DNA from: Xiphophorus maculatus
Taxonomy: Eukaryota; Chordata; Actinopteri; Cyprinodontiformes; Poeciliidae
DNA: 64,000 nucleotides
NCBI RefSeq assembly: GCF_002775205.1
Contig: NC_036461.1
Coordinates: forward strand, 20,308,015-20,372,014
Reading direction: 5' to 3'
Below the pieces are notes generated by a model. That model did not search any database, was not told the DNA's origin, and saw only the letters and a program-made list of their open reading frames with translations. The translations under genes were made by a program, and so were the position numbers. Shown here piece after piece: positions 7,422-64,000 of this stretch; the first letter of the stretch is position 1, and every line of letters starts with the position of its first letter.

Positions 7422-29003
<21,582 letters not shown>

Positions 29004-29240: not shown

Positions 29241-29359
29241 AAAATGTAGGAACTTTATCACTAAGTGGAGCACATTATATGGATAAATAATCTATGATGA
29301 CTTTACACTAATGAAAACATGACATTTCAAATTTAAAAGCTAAAAAAAAACTCAAATTG

Positions 29360-29362
<3 letters not shown>

Positions 29363-29440
<78 letters not shown>
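29363..29440. repeat. (TA)n tract 1
   Basis: A pure TA run of about 39 units, directly 5' of the R4/Rex6-like fragment. Confidence 0.97.
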
Positions 29441-29443
<3 letters not shown>

Positions 29444-29950
29444 AAAGCGTACATGGAACGACATAACCAAGTTGCAGGCATAGTGTACAGAAACATCTGT
29501 GCAGAATATGGACTGGAAACCCCGAGATCAAAGTGGGAAACACCCCCAAAGGTGGCGGAGAACGCCAGAGCTAAGATCCTGTGGGACTTCCAGATCCAGA
29601 CAGACAAAATGGTAATGGCAAACCAACCAGACATTGTCGTAGTGGATAAACAACAGAGGAAAGCCGTTGTGGTAGATGTAGCAATACCAAGCGACTGCAA
29701 CATCAGGAAAAAGGAGCACGAGAAACTAGAGAAATACCAGGGCCTCAGGGAGGAACTGGAGAGGGCCTCGAAGGTGAAGACCACAGTGGTGCCTGTGGTC
29801 ATCGGGGCCCCCGGGGCAGTCACCCCCAAACTGGACCAATGGCTACAACAGATCCCAGGAACAACATCAGACATCTCAGTCCAGAAATGTGCAGTCCTTG
29901 GCACAGCCAAGATACTGCGCAGGACCCTCAAGCTCCCAGTCCTCTGGTAG
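29441..29950 (+). pseudogene. R4/Rex6-like LINE, C-terminal endonuclease fragment
   Basis: An open frame of about 165 codons after the TA tract, ending in TAG at 29948. It carries NQPDIVVVDK then RKAVVVDVAIPSD, a PD...D/E-type spacing typical of the restriction-like endonuclease at the C-terminus of R2/R4-group non-LTR retrotransposons, and the tail PVVIGAPGAVTPKL...AKILRRTLKLP that is very common in fish genomes. The reverse transcriptase is missing, so this is a 5'-truncated copy. It is flanked by TA microsatellite on both sides, suggesting insertion into, or tailing by, TA repeats. The family name is from memory of the domain, not from a search. Confidence 0.7.
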
Positions 29951-34133: not shown

Positions 34134-37112
<2,979 letters not shown>

Positions 37113-47263: not shown

Positions 47264-47456
47264 AGTTCTCTTTCATAGCATTCGTTTCGTGTCTCACTAT
47301 GGGAACGCCCTGGGCGTGACCTCATCAGAAGCTCCAATTACACTCCACCAGCCCTGATTGGCTGGGGATAAGTCTGTCAGTGCCAGGGAGAGGGGGCATG
47401 TCCCACCCCCCTACCTATATATAGGACTGGCCCTGCACAGACAGATCATTCAAAAA
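47264..47456 (+). repeat. DIRS left inverted terminal repeat
   Basis: Outer part 47264-47304 is the reverse complement of 52756-52796. Inner part 47291-47456 is the reverse complement of 52896-53061 over 166 nt. Confidence 0.92.
47340..47422 (+). promoter_or_regulatory. Candidate DIRS promoter within the terminal repeat
   Basis: A reverse CCAAT word (GATTGGCT, about 47356) lies about 60 bp before TATATATA (47415-47422). The mRNA would start near 47445, ahead of the Gag ATG at 47759. The same elements are mirrored in the right repeat pointing outward on the minus strand. Confidence 0.5.
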
Positions 47457-47758
47457 CCTCTTCTCGCTACGAGCAGAAGTCCCGACTGGTTTCTCTCTTT
47501 TGCCTGCCGTTCTGGAGCTTAGCTTAACTGTCCATAGATACGAGTGCGAACTCGATCGCCGGGCGCTTTGTACCAGACTGGTAGTCTATATCGGGAGAAA
47601 ACTAGCGTTCAGTCTGTTGCAAAACAGCACTGTTATCTGTGAATAACTGTGCGGAGTAGAAATACGCTTCACTGTTTTTCACTGGAGTAGCAATACTCCA
47701 TTGGTAGCAATACCGGCAGAAGTAGCGATACTTCACAGAAATCGTTCCTGCAGTTAGC

Positions 47759-49063
47759 ATGGACGCCGGAAAGGCAGACGCTAAAGCGGACGAAAATCCA
47801 CGTGCTTGCCCGTGTGGAAATAAAATTTCGAGTTGGGACACTCACCAAATGTGTGTGTCGTGTCTCGGCTTAAGGCATGCCCAAGCAGCCCTCGAGTCAT
47901 CGGAGGAATGCTCTCATTGTAGCCGGCTCTCACTCAAGGTGCTGCGTCGCCGTCTGGCCCGTCAATTGACACTGTCCGGAGGCGACCCCATCCTGGCTTC
48001 TGCTGCAGCTAGCCAAGAAACGGCGGCTCAAGGACTGACACCGGTCCCTGATGCAGAACCAGGACCAAGCTGGGGCGATATGCTTGACGCTGTTAACCCG
48101 TTGCCACTGGATGTGAGCGGCCATAGCTTCACAGCTTACCCGCTCGATTACCCCATGGCAGGTGACGACGGAGGCTCGGATGCAGATTCTGAGCTTCTCA
48201 TCACCGACGAAGAAGAAGATGATGAACCGTCTCTTGTGCTCCGAGGTCGGGTCGCAAGACCTACACCTTCGGGCGTCAGCCAGGCCGGTGATGGTGACTC
48301 TTCTTCGTCTGCCTTGGATGTGGACCTGCATGACGTGTGTAAACGCGCCGCAGCAAAACTTCATATCCAGTGGCCCGAAGTTCAGGCTGAAGCAGCAAGA
48401 TCACGTTTCGACGGCAAAAAGCTGCCAAAAGCCAAGAGAACGGGAAAGCAGTTCCTGCCTTTCTTCCCTGAGTTGCTGGAGGAATTTTCAGTTTCCTGGC
48501 GCAACAAACCGTACAGGGAGAAGCACCCAGTGGCAGGTGGCTCGGTTCTAGACTGCGAGGGAATGGACGACCACGGTCTCCGCCAAATGCCTCGAGTCGA
48601 ACCAGTGGTGGCAGCGCACCTTCACCCGAAAACGTCTATGTCTTCGGGTGGGTTGGCTCCATCCCTCCCTTCAGCAGCGGACCGCTTCCAATCAAACCTG
48701 ACGGAGAAATCCTACAAGGCGGCCGCTCTATCAGTTCGCGCCATGAACGCTTCTTCCATGCTGATGGCGTATCAGGCGGAGCTGGAGGAGGAGATGACTG
48801 CATCACCGGACGCTACACTGTGGGAAGAAGTGTGTATCATCACTGATCACTGTCTCCAGCTCCATAAGGTAGCGATCCAGGCTATGGGGAGAACTATGGG
48901 GCTCATGGTTCTACAGGAAAGAGCTAGATGGTTAAACTTAACCACGCTTTCCACCAGGGAAAAGGAGGACCTCCTCGATACCCCCATCACCCCGCAGGGC
49001 CTGTTTGGTGCAGCTGTTACATCTATGCAAAAGAGGTGTGAGGACAAAAAAAAGGGACGATGA
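47759..49063 (+). CDS. DIRS Gag-like protein, frame broken near the C-terminus
   Basis: A 434-codon frame starting MDAGKADAKADENP. A cysteine/histidine cluster follows at about residues 18-58 (CPCG, HQMCVSCLG, CSHC), as at the N-terminus of many vertebrate DIRS Gag-like proteins, then an acidic linker and a helical domain (about 300-400). The frame runs into TGA just after an A8 run (49046-49053). Sequence typical of the family's continuing C-terminus (EALKLCLPRR, then a Pro/Lys-rich tail) resumes one frame over and stays open to 49331. The family normally encodes this as one protein, so a one-base insertion, a sequence error in the A-run or a frameshift event is likely. Function: presumed particle or nucleic-acid-binding protein. 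Confidence 0.8.
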   Translation: MDAGKADAKADENPRACPCGNKISSWDTHQMCVSCLGLRHAQAALESSEECSHCSRLSLKVLRRRLARQLTLSGGDPILASAAASQETAAQGLTPVPDAEPGPSWGDMLDAVNPLPLDVSGHSFTAYPLDYPMAGDDGGSDADSELLITDEEEDDEPSLVLRGRVARPTPSGVSQAGDGDSSSSALDVDLHDVCKRAAAKLHIQWPEVQAEAARSRFDGKKLPKAKRTGKQFLPFFPELLEEFSVSWRNKPYREKHPVAGGSVLDCEGMDDHGLRQMPRVEPVVAAHLHPKTSMSSGGLAPSLPSAADRFQSNLTEKSYKAAALSVRAMNASSMLMAYQAELEEEMTASPDATLWEEVCIITDHCLQLHKVAIQAMGRTMGLMVLQERARWLNLTTLSTREKEDLLDTPITPQGLFGAAVTSMQKRCEDKKKGR

Positions 49064-49243
49064 GGCTTTAAAGCTGTGTCTCCCAAGACGGGCGCCGGTG
49101 CACGCAGCCACCGGCCCCACGTCCCAGCGCCAAACCTTTGCCCAGGCTGCGGCGCGTTTGCCTCCCACTTTCAGAATCCCTAAATTGCCGAAGACCCAGA
49201 CGGCCGCTAACCCTCCTCCGAAAGGCGCTGCTGCTAAGGGCTC

Positions 49244-51659
49244 GTGGCCGAAGAAACCCGAAGCCGCCCGCTCGGATCAGCCGCCACCCGGGTCCACCCA
49301 GACGGTGAGGAGGAGGAAGCGTTTGGCCTGACAGCTTTTTGGAAGTCAGAGAGCGAGCTGGACTCGCCCTCAGACGCGGCTCCGTTACCGAGCCCTTCCA
49401 TAAAGTTCAGCAAAGTTCGGCGCACAAACGAGGGGATGTTCGAGCCCGCTCAGCGCGCACGAAACGGGAACCGTGTTCAGTTCGGGATGTCCCGCGTTGG
49501 ACCCAGTTCATGTCCCACAAGCACTGTTTTATGTCACAGAACATTAAACTTTCACAAGCTGCCGCATCCAGGCAAAACGCCGAGGGCGCAGCTAAAAATG
49601 TTGCAAAACAAACAAATACCAATAAGAGGGGAGATGGTTTGTCGCTCCCTGATAGGTGCACAGCCTCTCCCCCCCATAAGCAGACGCTTGACCGAGGGAA
49701 ACCCTTGCGCATGCGCGATGCGAGACGAGAAGTCTTGCAAGCCAGCGCCACAAGAGGGCGGTATTACCCCATGCAACACAAACTGGCCCGTCAGCCCGCT
49801 GTCACTGAGACCGATAAAATGGGCAAACTGCACAAACTCAGAGTGGGTTTTAAGAACAATAAACCGTGGATACCGGCTGCAATTCGCTCTGCCGCCTCCA
49901 CAGTTCAGGGGAGTGATTCAATCGCAGGCCAGTGGCTCCGCAGCTTTTTTCCTACAAGAGGAAATATCCTCTCTATTGGAGAAAAGAGCGATACAATTAA
50001 TCCCTCAGGAAAAATGCCAAGCAGGTTTTTACTCCAGATATTTCCTGGTCCCAAAGAAAGGTGGTCGAGGGATGCGTGCAATCTTAGACCTTCGGGCTCT
50101 AAACAGACATCTGAGAAAATACAAGTTCAGAATGCTGACACACGCTTCCCTCTTACGTTTCCTGCGCCCAGGCGATTGGTTCACATCAATCGATCTGAAG
50201 GATGCGTATTTTCACATTCCAATTTATCCACCACACAGGAAATATCTAAGATTTGCATTTCAGGGGAAATGCTACGAGTATCTCGTTCTCCCATTTGGCC
50301 TCTCCTTGAGCCCAAGGGTGTTTGTGAAATGCACAGAAGCTGCTGTGGCACCACTCAGGCAGCAGGGGGTACGTGTAGCCACGTACATAGACGATTGGTT
50401 GATCGCAGCTCCGTCACAGCGGGAGGCTGCAGATCATACAACATTGCTCTCAAAACACATGCTGGATCTGGGATTCAAAATAAATGTGGAGAAGAGCATC
50501 CTATTTCCCTGTCAAAAAAATCTCTTTTATCGGTCTGTTTCTAGACTCTGCCCAGGCCAGAGTGAAACTCACAGAGGAGAGAGTAAAATCACTTATGAAC
50601 TGCATGTCCCTGTTCCACAAGGGAAATTTTGTGTCTCCCCGTCTGTGCAGACGATTACTGGGTCTAATGGCCTCAGTTTTAGACGTTGTCCCACTAGGCC
50701 GCCTTCATATGAGGGGAGTCCAACGTTGGGTGGCTTCTCAGATGGTGGGCTTACACCCCCCCCACAGAGTAAGGGTCTCAGCCACCTGCAGAGCAGCCCT
50801 ACGTCCCTGGAGAAGTGTACACTTCCTATCTCAGGGTGTTCCCATGGGAACTATACTGAGCAGAAAAGTGGTGACGACAGATGCCTCCCTGTCAGGCTGG
50901 GGGGGGATCTTCGAAGGGAAGTCAGTGAATGGGACATGGGACAGACACATGCGTGTGTTCCATATAAATTATCTGGAACTGCTGGCTGTTCTCCTGACAC
51001 TGAAACATTTCCTCCTTTTCCTAAAGGGTCATCACGTATTAGTTCGGACAGACAACACAACTGTGGTGGCATACATAAACCGACAAGGGGGTCTAAGATC
51101 CCTTCATCTTCATATGCTGGCCCACAAGCTGGTCACTTGGAGCAGCAATCTTTTTCTGTCACTAAGGGCCACTCATATCCCAGGAGTGTTAAACCGGGGA
51201 GCAGACCTTCTCTCCAGGGGAAACCCTCTGTATGCAGAATGGAGACTTCACCCCGAGGTAGTCAGGATGATCTGGCTGCGTTACGGGCAGGCCTCAATAG
51301 ACCTGTTTGCGTCTCGGGAAAACACACAGTGTCCTCTGTTTTTCTCCCTTCACGACCGGGAAGCACCTTTGGGGGTGGATGCTCTCTCCCACCAGTGGCC
51401 TCGAGCTCTCCTGTATGCATTCCCACCTGTAGCCCTCATTTTGCCGACGATAGCCAGAGTTCGAGCCGAAGGCTTGTCAATGATTCTCATTGCACCTCAC
51501 TGGCCATCGAAGCACTGGTTGGCAGAGATAATCCAGCTTCTCCAGGGAGAACCATGGCCTCTACCTCTGCGCCGGGACCTGCTGTCTCAGGCGGGGGGGG
51601 AAATCCTCCACCCCCACCCAGAAAGGCTGGCACTATGGGCCTGGCCTGTGAGTGGTTAA
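49244..51659 (+). pseudogene. DIRS reverse transcriptase / RNase H, one frame change
   Basis: The N-terminal part is in frame with 49244 and carries RT motif A (FTSIDLKDAYFHIP), motif B (LPFGLSLSP) and catalytic YIDD at 50384-50395. At an A7 run (50514-50520) the family-like sequence moves to the frame of 50484 and continues with RNase H: TTDASLSGWGG (Asp at 50880), ELLAVLLTL, RTDNTTVVAYINRQGG and RGADLLSR, all catalytic acidic residues present. The segment after RNase H (SIDLFASRENTQCP..., to the stop at 51657) is the conserved region that some authors relate to a DNA methyltransferase; I make no claim on its activity. One extra base in the A-run explains the break. The original frame happens to stay open to 52699, which creates a misleading 1151-codon ORF. 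Confidence 0.85.
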
Positions 51660-52699
51660 ATTTACACTCTGTAGGCCTCCCACACAATGTTATTGAGACA
51701 ATCCAAAGTGCAAGGGCCCCCACCACCAGGTCTCTGTATGACTGCAAATGGGCCATATTTGAAAAATGGTGTGCAGAAGCACAGGAAATATCCATTCAGT
51801 GCTCTGTAGTTACCATTTTGACTTTCCTGCAGGACCTGCTGGATAAGGGTAAGGTTTTTTCCACCATAAAAGTGTACTTGGCAGCAATCTCAGCTTGCCA
51901 TGTTGGTTTTGGTGGGAAAACCGTGGGACAGCACCCCTTGGTTTGCCAGTTTATGAAGGGAGTTCGTCGTCGGCTTCCTGTCTCTAAACCCCTTGCCCCA
52001 TCGTGGGACCTTCCTCTGGTTCTGGATGCTCTGATGGATGCTCCATTTGAGCCCCTGGGACAGGTGGATTTGAGATTTGTTACTCTGAAGACAGCGCTTT
52101 TACTGGCACTTACTTCGGCTAAGCGGGTGGGTGAGCTCCATGCTTTTTCAGTGAACCCAGCTTGTATCAAATTCTCTGCAGGGAATAGAAGGGTGACCTT
52201 AATTCCTAATCCTGCCTTTTTGCCCAAGGTGTTGGGGTCATGTTCGGCAATAGACTTGGTGTCTTTTAGCCCCCCACCTTTTTCCTCAGCGATGCAGGAG
52301 CGTCTTCATGGACTCTGTCCAGTTCGGGCCCTGCACACTTATATGGATAGGACCAAAATATTGAGGAAAAGTGACCAGCTGTTTGTTTCTTGGGCGAAAG
52401 GTCACCTTGGTAAACCTGTATCAAAACAGCGACTTTCACATTGGATAGTTGCTGCAATTGCTTTAGCTTACACCTCTAAGGGACAGCAGCCGCCTGAGGG
52501 CCTTCGTGCCCACTCTACACGAGGGGTGACCACCTCATGGGCCCTTTTTAGAGGAGTTTCCATCCAGGAGATCTGTGCCGCAGCTAGCTGGGCTTCTCCC
52601 CATACATTTGCTCGGTTTTATAAGCTTGATGTCACAGCTCAACCGCTGGCTCATTCAGTGCTCAGCTTGGCATCAGTGCCACCAAGCACCCATCAATGA
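51554..52699 (+). CDS. DIRS tyrosine recombinase
   Basis: 381 codons from the ATG at 51554, overlapping the end of the RT/RNase H frame by about 105 nt, as is common in DIRS elements. An N-terminal SAM-like core-binding region (TTRSLYDCKWAIFEKWC) is followed by the catalytic domain. Arg is in SAKRVGELH (52124-52126), His-x-x-Arg in HSTRG (52511-52522) and the nucleophile Tyr in FARFYKLD (52619-52621). The catalytic residues are intact and no stop interrupts the frame, so it looks capable of acting. In this family the enzyme integrates a circular DNA intermediate without making target duplications. The start codon is a choice; translation could begin further upstream in the same frame. Confidence 0.87.
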   Translation: MASTSAPGPAVSGGGGNPPPPPRKAGTMGLACEWLNLHSVGLPHNVIETIQSARAPTTRSLYDCKWAIFEKWCAEAQEISIQCSVVTILTFLQDLLDKGKVFSTIKVYLAAISACHVGFGGKTVGQHPLVCQFMKGVRRRLPVSKPLAPSWDLPLVLDALMDAPFEPLGQVDLRFVTLKTALLLALTSAKRVGELHAFSVNPACIKFSAGNRRVTLIPNPAFLPKVLGSCSAIDLVSFSPPPFSSAMQERLHGLCPVRALHTYMDRTKILRKSDQLFVSWAKGHLGKPVSKQRLSHWIVAAIALAYTSKGQQPPEGLRAHSTRGVTTSWALFRGVSIQEICAAASWASPHTFARFYKLDVTAQPLAHSVLSLASVPPSTHQ

Positions 52700-52754
52700 C
52701 TCATATTGTCAGCAGTCGGTCTTGGGTCTGCATCGCAATCCGGGAGTCAGGATT

Positions 52755-52848
52755 TTCCCATAGTGAGACACGAAACGAATGCTATGAAAGAGAACTTTAG
52801 GTTACTTTCGTAACCCCGGTTCTCTGAGTAGCATGAGTGAGTGTCTCA
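52755..52848 (+). repeat. DIRS internal complementary region
   Basis: 52756-52796 is the reverse complement of the left end (47264-47304), and 52795-52848 is the reverse complement of the right end (53056-53109). The two halves overlap by 1-2 nt at C-T (52795-52796). It contains the small hairpin GGTTAC-TTTC-GTAACC (52800-52815). Confidence 0.92.
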
Positions 52849-52895
52849 CCTAGCCACCCTCCTTGCTCATTTGTAGCGAGGAAGAGGGTGTGAGT

Positions 52896-53109
52896 TTTTT
52901 GAATGATCTGTCTGTGCAGGGCCAGTCCTATATATAGGTAGGGGGGTGGGACATGCCCCCTCTCCCTGGCACTGACAGACTTATCCCCAGCCAATCAGGG
53001 CTGGTGGAGTGTAATTGGAGCTTCTGATGAGGTCACGCCCAGGGCGTTCCCATAGTGAGACACTCACTCATGCTACTCAGAGAACCGGGGTTACGAAAGT
53101 AACCTAAAG
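52896..53109 (-). repeat. DIRS right inverted terminal repeat
   Basis: 52896-53061 mirrors the left repeat. The outer part 53062-53109 is unique to this end and is copied in the internal complementary region. It ends CCTAAAG, next to GTT of the flank. Confidence 0.92.

Positions 53110-53345: not shown

Positions 53346-64000
<10,655 letters not shown>

Follow-up and report, generated by a model that had tools for sequence, protein, structure and literature searches.

The element analysed here can be set beside several described systems. In ray-finned fish, DIRS1-like copies were present in all 5 genomes tested, with more than 4,000 copies overall (PMC3266345). The teleost DIRS1-like elements GaDIRS1/2 and TnDIRS1a, described in Table 3 of that survey, measure 5.3 to 5.9 kb, start with GTT, and have an AAC circular junction, a right extension, and a long overlap between open reading frames (ORFs). 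Our element is like them in each of these features, and its inverted terminal repeats (ITRs) have divergent and conserved parts of similar length to theirs, a comparison made from their descriptions. Of 28 elements, half, among them those of stickleback and pufferfish, were recorded with a "long ORF overlap," and integration was modeled as recombination of a circle into a short matching site (PMC3266345). Dictyostelium DIRS-1 is also similar, with three partly overlapping ORFs, ITRs that have promoter activity, an internal complementary region (ICR), and circular cDNA; GFP fusions to its ORFs are mentioned in PMC5633606. Its host is distant, however, and it is reported to target its own copies, whereas the fish copies lie in unrelated-looking flanks. 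Ngaro and PAT likewise encode a tyrosine recombinase (YR), but both have split direct repeats (PMC9210276 for Ngaro, PMC3266345 for PAT) where our element has ITRs, and Ngaro has no methyltransferase (MT) domain (PMC3266345). A gag ORF with a LAP2alpha-like domain is described for DIRS1-like elements of Xenopus in PMC9210276.

We found no explanation of the purpose of the DIRS ORF overlap in the PMC literature, as far as its texts were available. Neither a test of selection on the overlap nor one of its translation in animals appeared there, the available parts of PMC3266345, PMC9210276, PMC5633606, and PMC5941688 included, and a search there for ribosomal frameshifting in connection with DIRS tyrosine recombinases listed no paper.

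The window, the whole stretch of 64,000 nucleotides of Xiphophorus maculatus DNA that was analysed, contains a full-length DIRS1-like retrotransposon on the plus strand at 47265..53109. Its bounds were set by comparing copies, with GTT at the left end and CCTAAAG at the right. A sequence-only reading of the window had started the element at 47264; the end that it gave, 53109, stands, and the other copies place the first base at 47265, the G of GTT. That reading also had two 166-bp inverted repeats without visible differences. On realignment, the left ITR (47289..47460, plus strand) and the right ITR (52892..53063, minus strand) were indeed near-identical, but they span 172 nt and agree at 171, the single mismatch following the first 168 exact positions. 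Outside the match to the right ITR lies a divergent part of the left end (47265..47288, plus strand), which is copied in the left ICR; a right extension (53064..53109, plus strand) is complementary only to the right ICR.

The internal region had been described as complementary to both outer ends over 41 and 54 nt, and both matches proved exact, with the right one at 55 nt. The left ICR (52755..52795, minus strand) pairs with 47265-47305 over 41 nt with no mismatch and holds the AAC circular junction at 52793-52795. The right ICR (52795..52849, minus strand) pairs with 53055-53109 at 55/55 nt. With equal base frequencies, a 6.8-kb sequence is expected to contain about 2e-11 exact inverted 30-nt matches. 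The DIRS1-like traits are present as ITRs with a right extension, an ICR matching both ends, and a GTT terminal trinucleotide, of the NTT type, complementary to the AAC circular junction in the ICR. No split direct repeats of the PAT or Ngaro kind were found, the longest direct repeat in the region being 24 nt (88% or less).

All coding regions lie on the plus strand, in the order gag, reverse transcriptase (RT), RNase H, a weak Dam-like domain, and YR. The gag ORF (47759..49063, in a frame that opens at 47726) ends early in this copy, and its tail continues in another frame to 49331. The RT part of pol occupies 49238..50520, with an RVT_1 match at about 50048-50506 (E 1.2e-22) and a YIDD motif; its PDB matches were retroviral and Ty3 RT chains, and with the RNase H match below they agree with the Ty3/gypsy kinship of DIRS1-like RT and RNase H. 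The RNase H and Dam-like MT part follows at 50521..51659 in a frame that differs from that of RT, the break lying near 50.5 kb. RNase H matched PF17917 (RT_RNaseH) at E 6e-6, and the Dam-like MT matched PF05869 weakly, at E 0.0036, under the curated cut-off. A LAP2alpha-like domain in gag was also weak and under cut-off (PF11560, E 0.03-0.055), and Pfam found none in the gag of a second family from the same genome (family 2, below). Overlapping pol, a stop-free frame in phase with YR runs through 49309..51634, in one frame over 49309-50544 and then, past the same pol break, in that of YR.

The YR domain (51635..52699) shows the pattern R..HSTR..W..Y. Pfam had no match to the window's own YR domain and only weak ones to that of family 2 (E 0.004-0.006, under cut-off). 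In an alignment of 32 sequences including the window's, R164, H293, R296, and W319 were invariant and Y329 was present in at least 90%. An AlphaFold model of YR (mean pLDDT 79; last 25 residues below 50) was matched best by Cre chains (E 1.7e-8, TM 0.61/0.66). By its catalytic residues and fold model, the window YR is a Cre-like tyrosine recombinase, predicted to serve in place of a DDE integrase. These matches also uphold the RT, RNase H, and tyrosine recombinase motifs with catalytic residues reported from the letters, and with the ITRs, the ICR, and the Cre-like YR all found, the earlier assignment to DIRS holds. The element is a further member of an already known type.

How young is this copy? 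Searching the whole genome assembly (704,300,149 bases in 101 contigs) with the terminal 410 bases gave 81 matches, many of them pieces or other families, and a YR search gave at least 117. The window's own family (family 1) has three full-length copies, the window copy included. They differ by 3, 4, and 3 pairwise substitutions over about 5,844 sites, a substitution identity of 99.93-99.95% to copies on other chromosomes, and their flanks differ by eye. If substitutions accumulate at 3.5e-9 to 1e-8 per site (time counted in generations or years), these copies have a mean age of about 28,500 to 81,500 such units. A fourth copy, with internal deletions, is about 1% different over 4,328 sites; among the older relatives are one interrupted copy (about 97% identity) and one remnant (about 78-86%).

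Family 2 comprises 11 full-length copies of about 5,787 bp (L015-L025), ten of which are 99.5-99.9% identical to the remaining one, L017, and all three frames are open in 7 of the 11. In a third family (family 5, L047-L056), 10 copies were compared over some 2.9 kb and proved at least 99.6% identical. What were first counted as families 3 and 4 form a single family, a pair of copies that are 99.2% identical. Judged by these copy-to-copy comparisons, DIRS families have moved recently in the Xiphophorus maculatus genome.

We took age from comparison between copies and rejected ITR identity as the clock, because in the young family 2 the ITRs of L017 differ by 7 gap positions. Each of the four family 1 copies has one ITR mismatch, so the mismatch is probably inherited. 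The sequence-only reading was right that the copy is young and that near-identical relatives exist in the same genome (two further full-length copies); its argument from identical repeats was weak, and its remark that full-length vertebrate DIRS copies are uncommon finds no support, given 3 such copies in family 1, 11 in family 2, the near-identical copies of family 5, and the numbers published for ray-finned fish (PMC3266345). Might the copy instead be old, with ITRs kept identical by gene conversion? Replication may partly enforce ITR identity in DIRS elements, but the near-identity to copies on other chromosomes extends over the whole element, and we consider an old copy extremely improbable. 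That the element is a DIRS1-like retrotransposon that moved recently is a joint claim that we make with high confidence.

The ends of the copies bear on how they were inserted. All 15 copies whose left end was read, 4 from family 1 and 11 from family 2, start with GTT. At the right end, a G follows CCTAAA in 15 of 15 copies read (5 of family 1 and 10 of family 2, with L025 unread), the trinucleotides being GTT in 11, GGT in 2, GGC in 1, and GAT in 1. No target-site duplication beyond the trinucleotide was seen by eye in the flanks. Together with the unrelated-looking flanks, this agrees with a circle recombining into a short matching site.

The ITRs also hold a presumed promoter. A simple word search placed a TATA-like box at 47416..47421 (plus strand) in the left ITR of the window copy, and the first ITR mismatch is at 47457; in family 2 the TATA is at offset 142, and the ITRs first differ at offset 179. 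The two families examined thus agree in that their ITRs cease to be strictly identical just past the expected transcription start. This limit would fit an untranscribed outer part of the left ITR that is rebuilt from the right ITR in each cycle, and a transcribed part that would be inherited on its own. Transcription would begin some 30 nt downstream of the left-ITR TATA box, and RT would copy the RNA; the missing ends would be rebuilt from the ICR and the right ITR, and a circle with a GTT junction would form. YR would then recombine the circle into a genomic site sharing at least a G, with no target duplication.

The element had been called almost complete. It is full length from end to end, but its gag and pol frames are broken once each: gag stops early near 49.06 kb, and in pol the frame changes near 50.5 kb, after the RT core and before RNase H. 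Gag is 534 codons long in the other two full-length family 1 copies (L009 and L010), and pol in L010 is a single frame of 806 codons. One of these copies has all three long frames open; the other has gag open and shares the pol break. A break common to two copies could mean mobilisation by a helper copy, a slippage-prone place, or an assembly error. With gag and pol both broken, the window copy probably lacks autonomy, assembly errors at the two places aside. Both are single small length differences, and the copy shows no other disabling change relative to one with open frames, as an autonomous element misassembled at two places would; the pol break recurs in the copy on C14, however, and no frame break was seen by eye in the srp54 exons that were aligned. 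We regard autonomy of the window copy as doubtful.

The frame that lies over pol in the phase of YR is open for 1,129 codons in L010, where it spans all of pol except its first 71 bases, and for 1,143 codons in L017. In the window copy itself, the 364 codons of the RNase H/MT part contain no YR-phase stop; the lowest of 20,000 shuffles had 2. We shuffled synonymous codons of pol in one copy from each of four families (L010, L017, L058, and L059 for families 1, 2, 4, and 5). The pol overlap has no YR-phase stop in 782, 797, 757, and 643 codons, respectively, against shuffle means of 29.2, 25.1, 28.8, and 16.9 and lowest values of 16, 12, 15, and 6 among 3,000. A shuffle that roughly keeps codon-junction dinucleotides still gave 14.9 and 14.3 stops, with a minimum of 7 (families 1 and 2; 300 samples each). 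Family 3 (L057), being 99.2% identical to family 4 and disrupted in pol, was left out of the four-family test; with its YR offset of 1, it has no stops against a shuffle mean of 8.3 and a minimum of 1.

T-ending codons stand before AA, AG, or GA codons, where they would complete a stop, in 0/157, 0/148, 0/142, and 0/94 cases, versus 46/239, 51/268, 49/248, and 37/202 before other purine-starting codons (Fisher p 2.7e-7 to 1.5e-11). As controls, gag and the YR-only part were examined in families 1 and 2 only, and at the equivalent frame offset neither showed stop avoidance; the +1 frame of the family 2 YR-only part had 11 stops versus 15.9, and 33 of 1,000 shuffles were as low. The third frame of pol had somewhat more stops than its shuffles (56 versus 48, 62 versus 54). 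The copies used in these frame tests had long open frames by choice; other stop-free matches, which also cover most of YR but are open over a shorter span, measure 683, 589, and 335 codons.

The encoded sequence fared differently. Fourfold-degenerate sites in the overlap diverge by 0.63-0.80 across six family pairs, about as much as those in YR-only codons (0.67-0.77), so silent change there is saturated. YR-phase amino acids over the overlap are identical at 0.24-0.31 of positions in the six pairs. For families 1 and 2 this identity is 0.284, versus 0.245 under a null that keeps the pol amino acids (sd 0.013; highest of 300, 0.272), and the largest excess is at L010:3378-3666 (0.47 versus 0.30). 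Since this identity exceeds the null, local sequence constraint on the overlap frame is possible. As the cause of the open overlap, constraint at the protein level is unsupported by the fourfold sites, though identity does exceed the null. A hyper-conserved RNA signal inside pol was also discarded as a candidate, the family 1 versus 2 peaks in the share of identical codons, 0.54-0.88 (mean 0.36), resting on 8-20 codons each.

Database proteins gave a wider sample. Two protein searches, taken as the best 120 of 1,213 and the best 120 of 470 matches, yielded 207 proteins. Among these best-120 lists, 53 of 207 have at least 400 residues before YR with no pol homology, and in 50 of the 53 a stretch of at least 132 residues matches the overlap frame. 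A further 102 of the 207 are joined pol, YR-phase, and YR proteins; 40 carry pol and YR but little of the overlap frame, and the remaining 12 are short YR proteins. When 37 of the 53 were aligned with the sequences of families 1 and 2, pairwise identity in blocks of 60 residues had a median of 0.19-0.32 over the overlap, the first 180 residues being covered by 20-60% of rows only, and it rose to 0.57-0.67 at residue 781, where pol ends. The closest protein to the RT-YR query among the best 120 of 1,213 was Cyprinodon tularosa LOC119798106 (P0001; 60% identity over 85%), and the named relatives among the matches listed for that query were teleosts; for the YR part, the closest among the best 120 of 470 was Epinephelus fuscoguttatus LOC125889068 (P0121; 79% over 97%). 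No near-identical protein was among the best 120 of either search. Together, the shuffles and the alignments suggest that the YR-phase frame over pol is kept free of stops by selection, with its encoded sequence hardly conserved.

Where would ribosomes enter such a frame? In family 2 the first YR-phase ATG lies 1,059 nt into the open frame, and the 352-353 codons before it contain no stop versus about 11 expected. Upstream of that first ATG, 0, 4, 187, and 2,736 of 20,000 shuffles were stop free in families 2, 4, 5, and 1, respectively; in family 1, the window's family, the openness is not significant alone. By this measure, three of the four families keep the frame free of stops even ahead of its first AUG, which would imply ribosome entry without an AUG near the end of gag. 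The relation of gag to the YR phase varies: in families 2 and 5 they form one frame split by a single stop (TAG and TGA, respectively), and in families 1 and 4 the YR phase is shifted by +1 relative to gag, its open stretch beginning 20 and 29 nt, respectively, ahead of the gag stop. The ORF called "gag" in families 4 and 5 was assigned by position only, and the sequence used covers part of it.

On these frame relations, ribosomes would enter the YR-phase frame at or near the gag end, by stop readthrough where the two share a frame and by a +1 shift where they do not; the product would be a Gag-linker-YR protein whose linker has no required sequence. A single recoding signal could not work in every family, because the gag-to-YR relation is +1 in families 1 and 4 but 0 in 2 and 5. 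Predicted RNA structure after the gag stop, spotted in a scan and then tested, had z values of -2.9, -3.1, -0.3, and -1.6, notable and supportive of recoding in families 1 and 2 only, where the structured stretches directly follow the stop (L010:2461-2540 and L017:2905-2984). Equally low windows occur elsewhere in 3, 4, 33, and 10 of 73 windows per family. We set this structure aside as a common signal, since it appears in two of four families only, and likewise canonical slippery heptamers: the pol frame has 6 of them in family 1 and 2 in family 2, but no two occupy equivalent positions in the two families.

Recoding at the gag stop is the leading reading of these frames, ahead of an early -1 frameshift in pol and of splicing. 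If YR were made by a -1 frameshift soon after the start of pol, the product would be an N-terminal part of Pol joined through the linker to YR, and gag would not be involved. The pol-to-YR phase is constant (-1) in all four families tested, as such a shift would have it, but an overlap this long cannot easily change phase, so constancy is expected anyway. Pol is joined to the YR phase in one protein in two of the three full-length family 1 copies (the window copy and L009) and in the 102 of 207 best-120 proteins noted above, a number biased by the joined query and including many gene models. In family 2, no canonical slippery heptamer occurs in the pol frame before L017:4105, yet the YR phase is open from 2905. 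We think a frameshift early in pol unlikely. Equally unlikely, in our judgement, is a spliced RNA with its acceptor near the gag end, which would oblige the frame to stay open from there. Such splicing would account for the openness before the first AUG and for the variable relation of gag to YR, and several database proteins jump from pol or gag pieces to the YR phase, as intron-bearing annotation would; but a splice model does not demand an acceptor so far upstream in every family. Returning to entry at the gag end, we propose tentatively, and short of calling it probable, that ribosomes making teleost DIRS YR would read through some 640-800 codons of a frame opposite RT/RNase H/MT, kept open by selection but free in sequence, which they would enter without an AUG at the end of gag, so that one gag terminus would feed two other frames and yield Gag-linker-YR.

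The host locus was described earlier as intron 1 of srp54. A tblastn search with a human SRP54 query placed the first coding exon of srp54 outside the element, at 54841..54921 on the plus strand. The element lies upstream of this ATG exon, in the orientation of srp54, and a splice-acceptor-like sequence read by eye precedes the exon; but no srp54 exon was located upstream of the element, so the intron 1 position is plausible and unproven. Within the element, over 47501-53000, the CpG observed/expected ratio is 0.6-1.0 across gag and the start of pol and 0.24-0.48 across RNase H, YR, and the end; in so young a copy, decay after insertion is an unlikely cause of this fall. Elsewhere in the window, an open frame at 29315-29950 beside a TA repeat reads by eye like the end of what we take to be a LINE reverse transcriptase ORF, and exon-like frames on the minus strand at 7422-10542 and 34971-36523 look by eye like parts of two proteins, a receptor kinase of the TYRO3 type and a leucine-rich-repeat protein such as LRRC57.

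The locus thus presents a fresh DIRS copy in or beside the housekeeping gene srp54, in a genome where DIRS elements also moved recently in two further families (11 and 10 near-identical copies) and a pair at 99.2%. The long ORF overlap was already described for DIRS; what is new here is the stop-avoidance test for a frame that is open and sequence free. Where stops are strongly avoided but silent sites vary freely, a need to be read can be told apart from a need to encode something, and an open but sequence-free frame is, in our judgement, unusual among overlapping genes. With such a frame, the route by which a retroelement recombinase is expressed can be tested directly, and its openness despite a free protein sequence suggests that the element's inserting enzyme is produced in an unusual manner.
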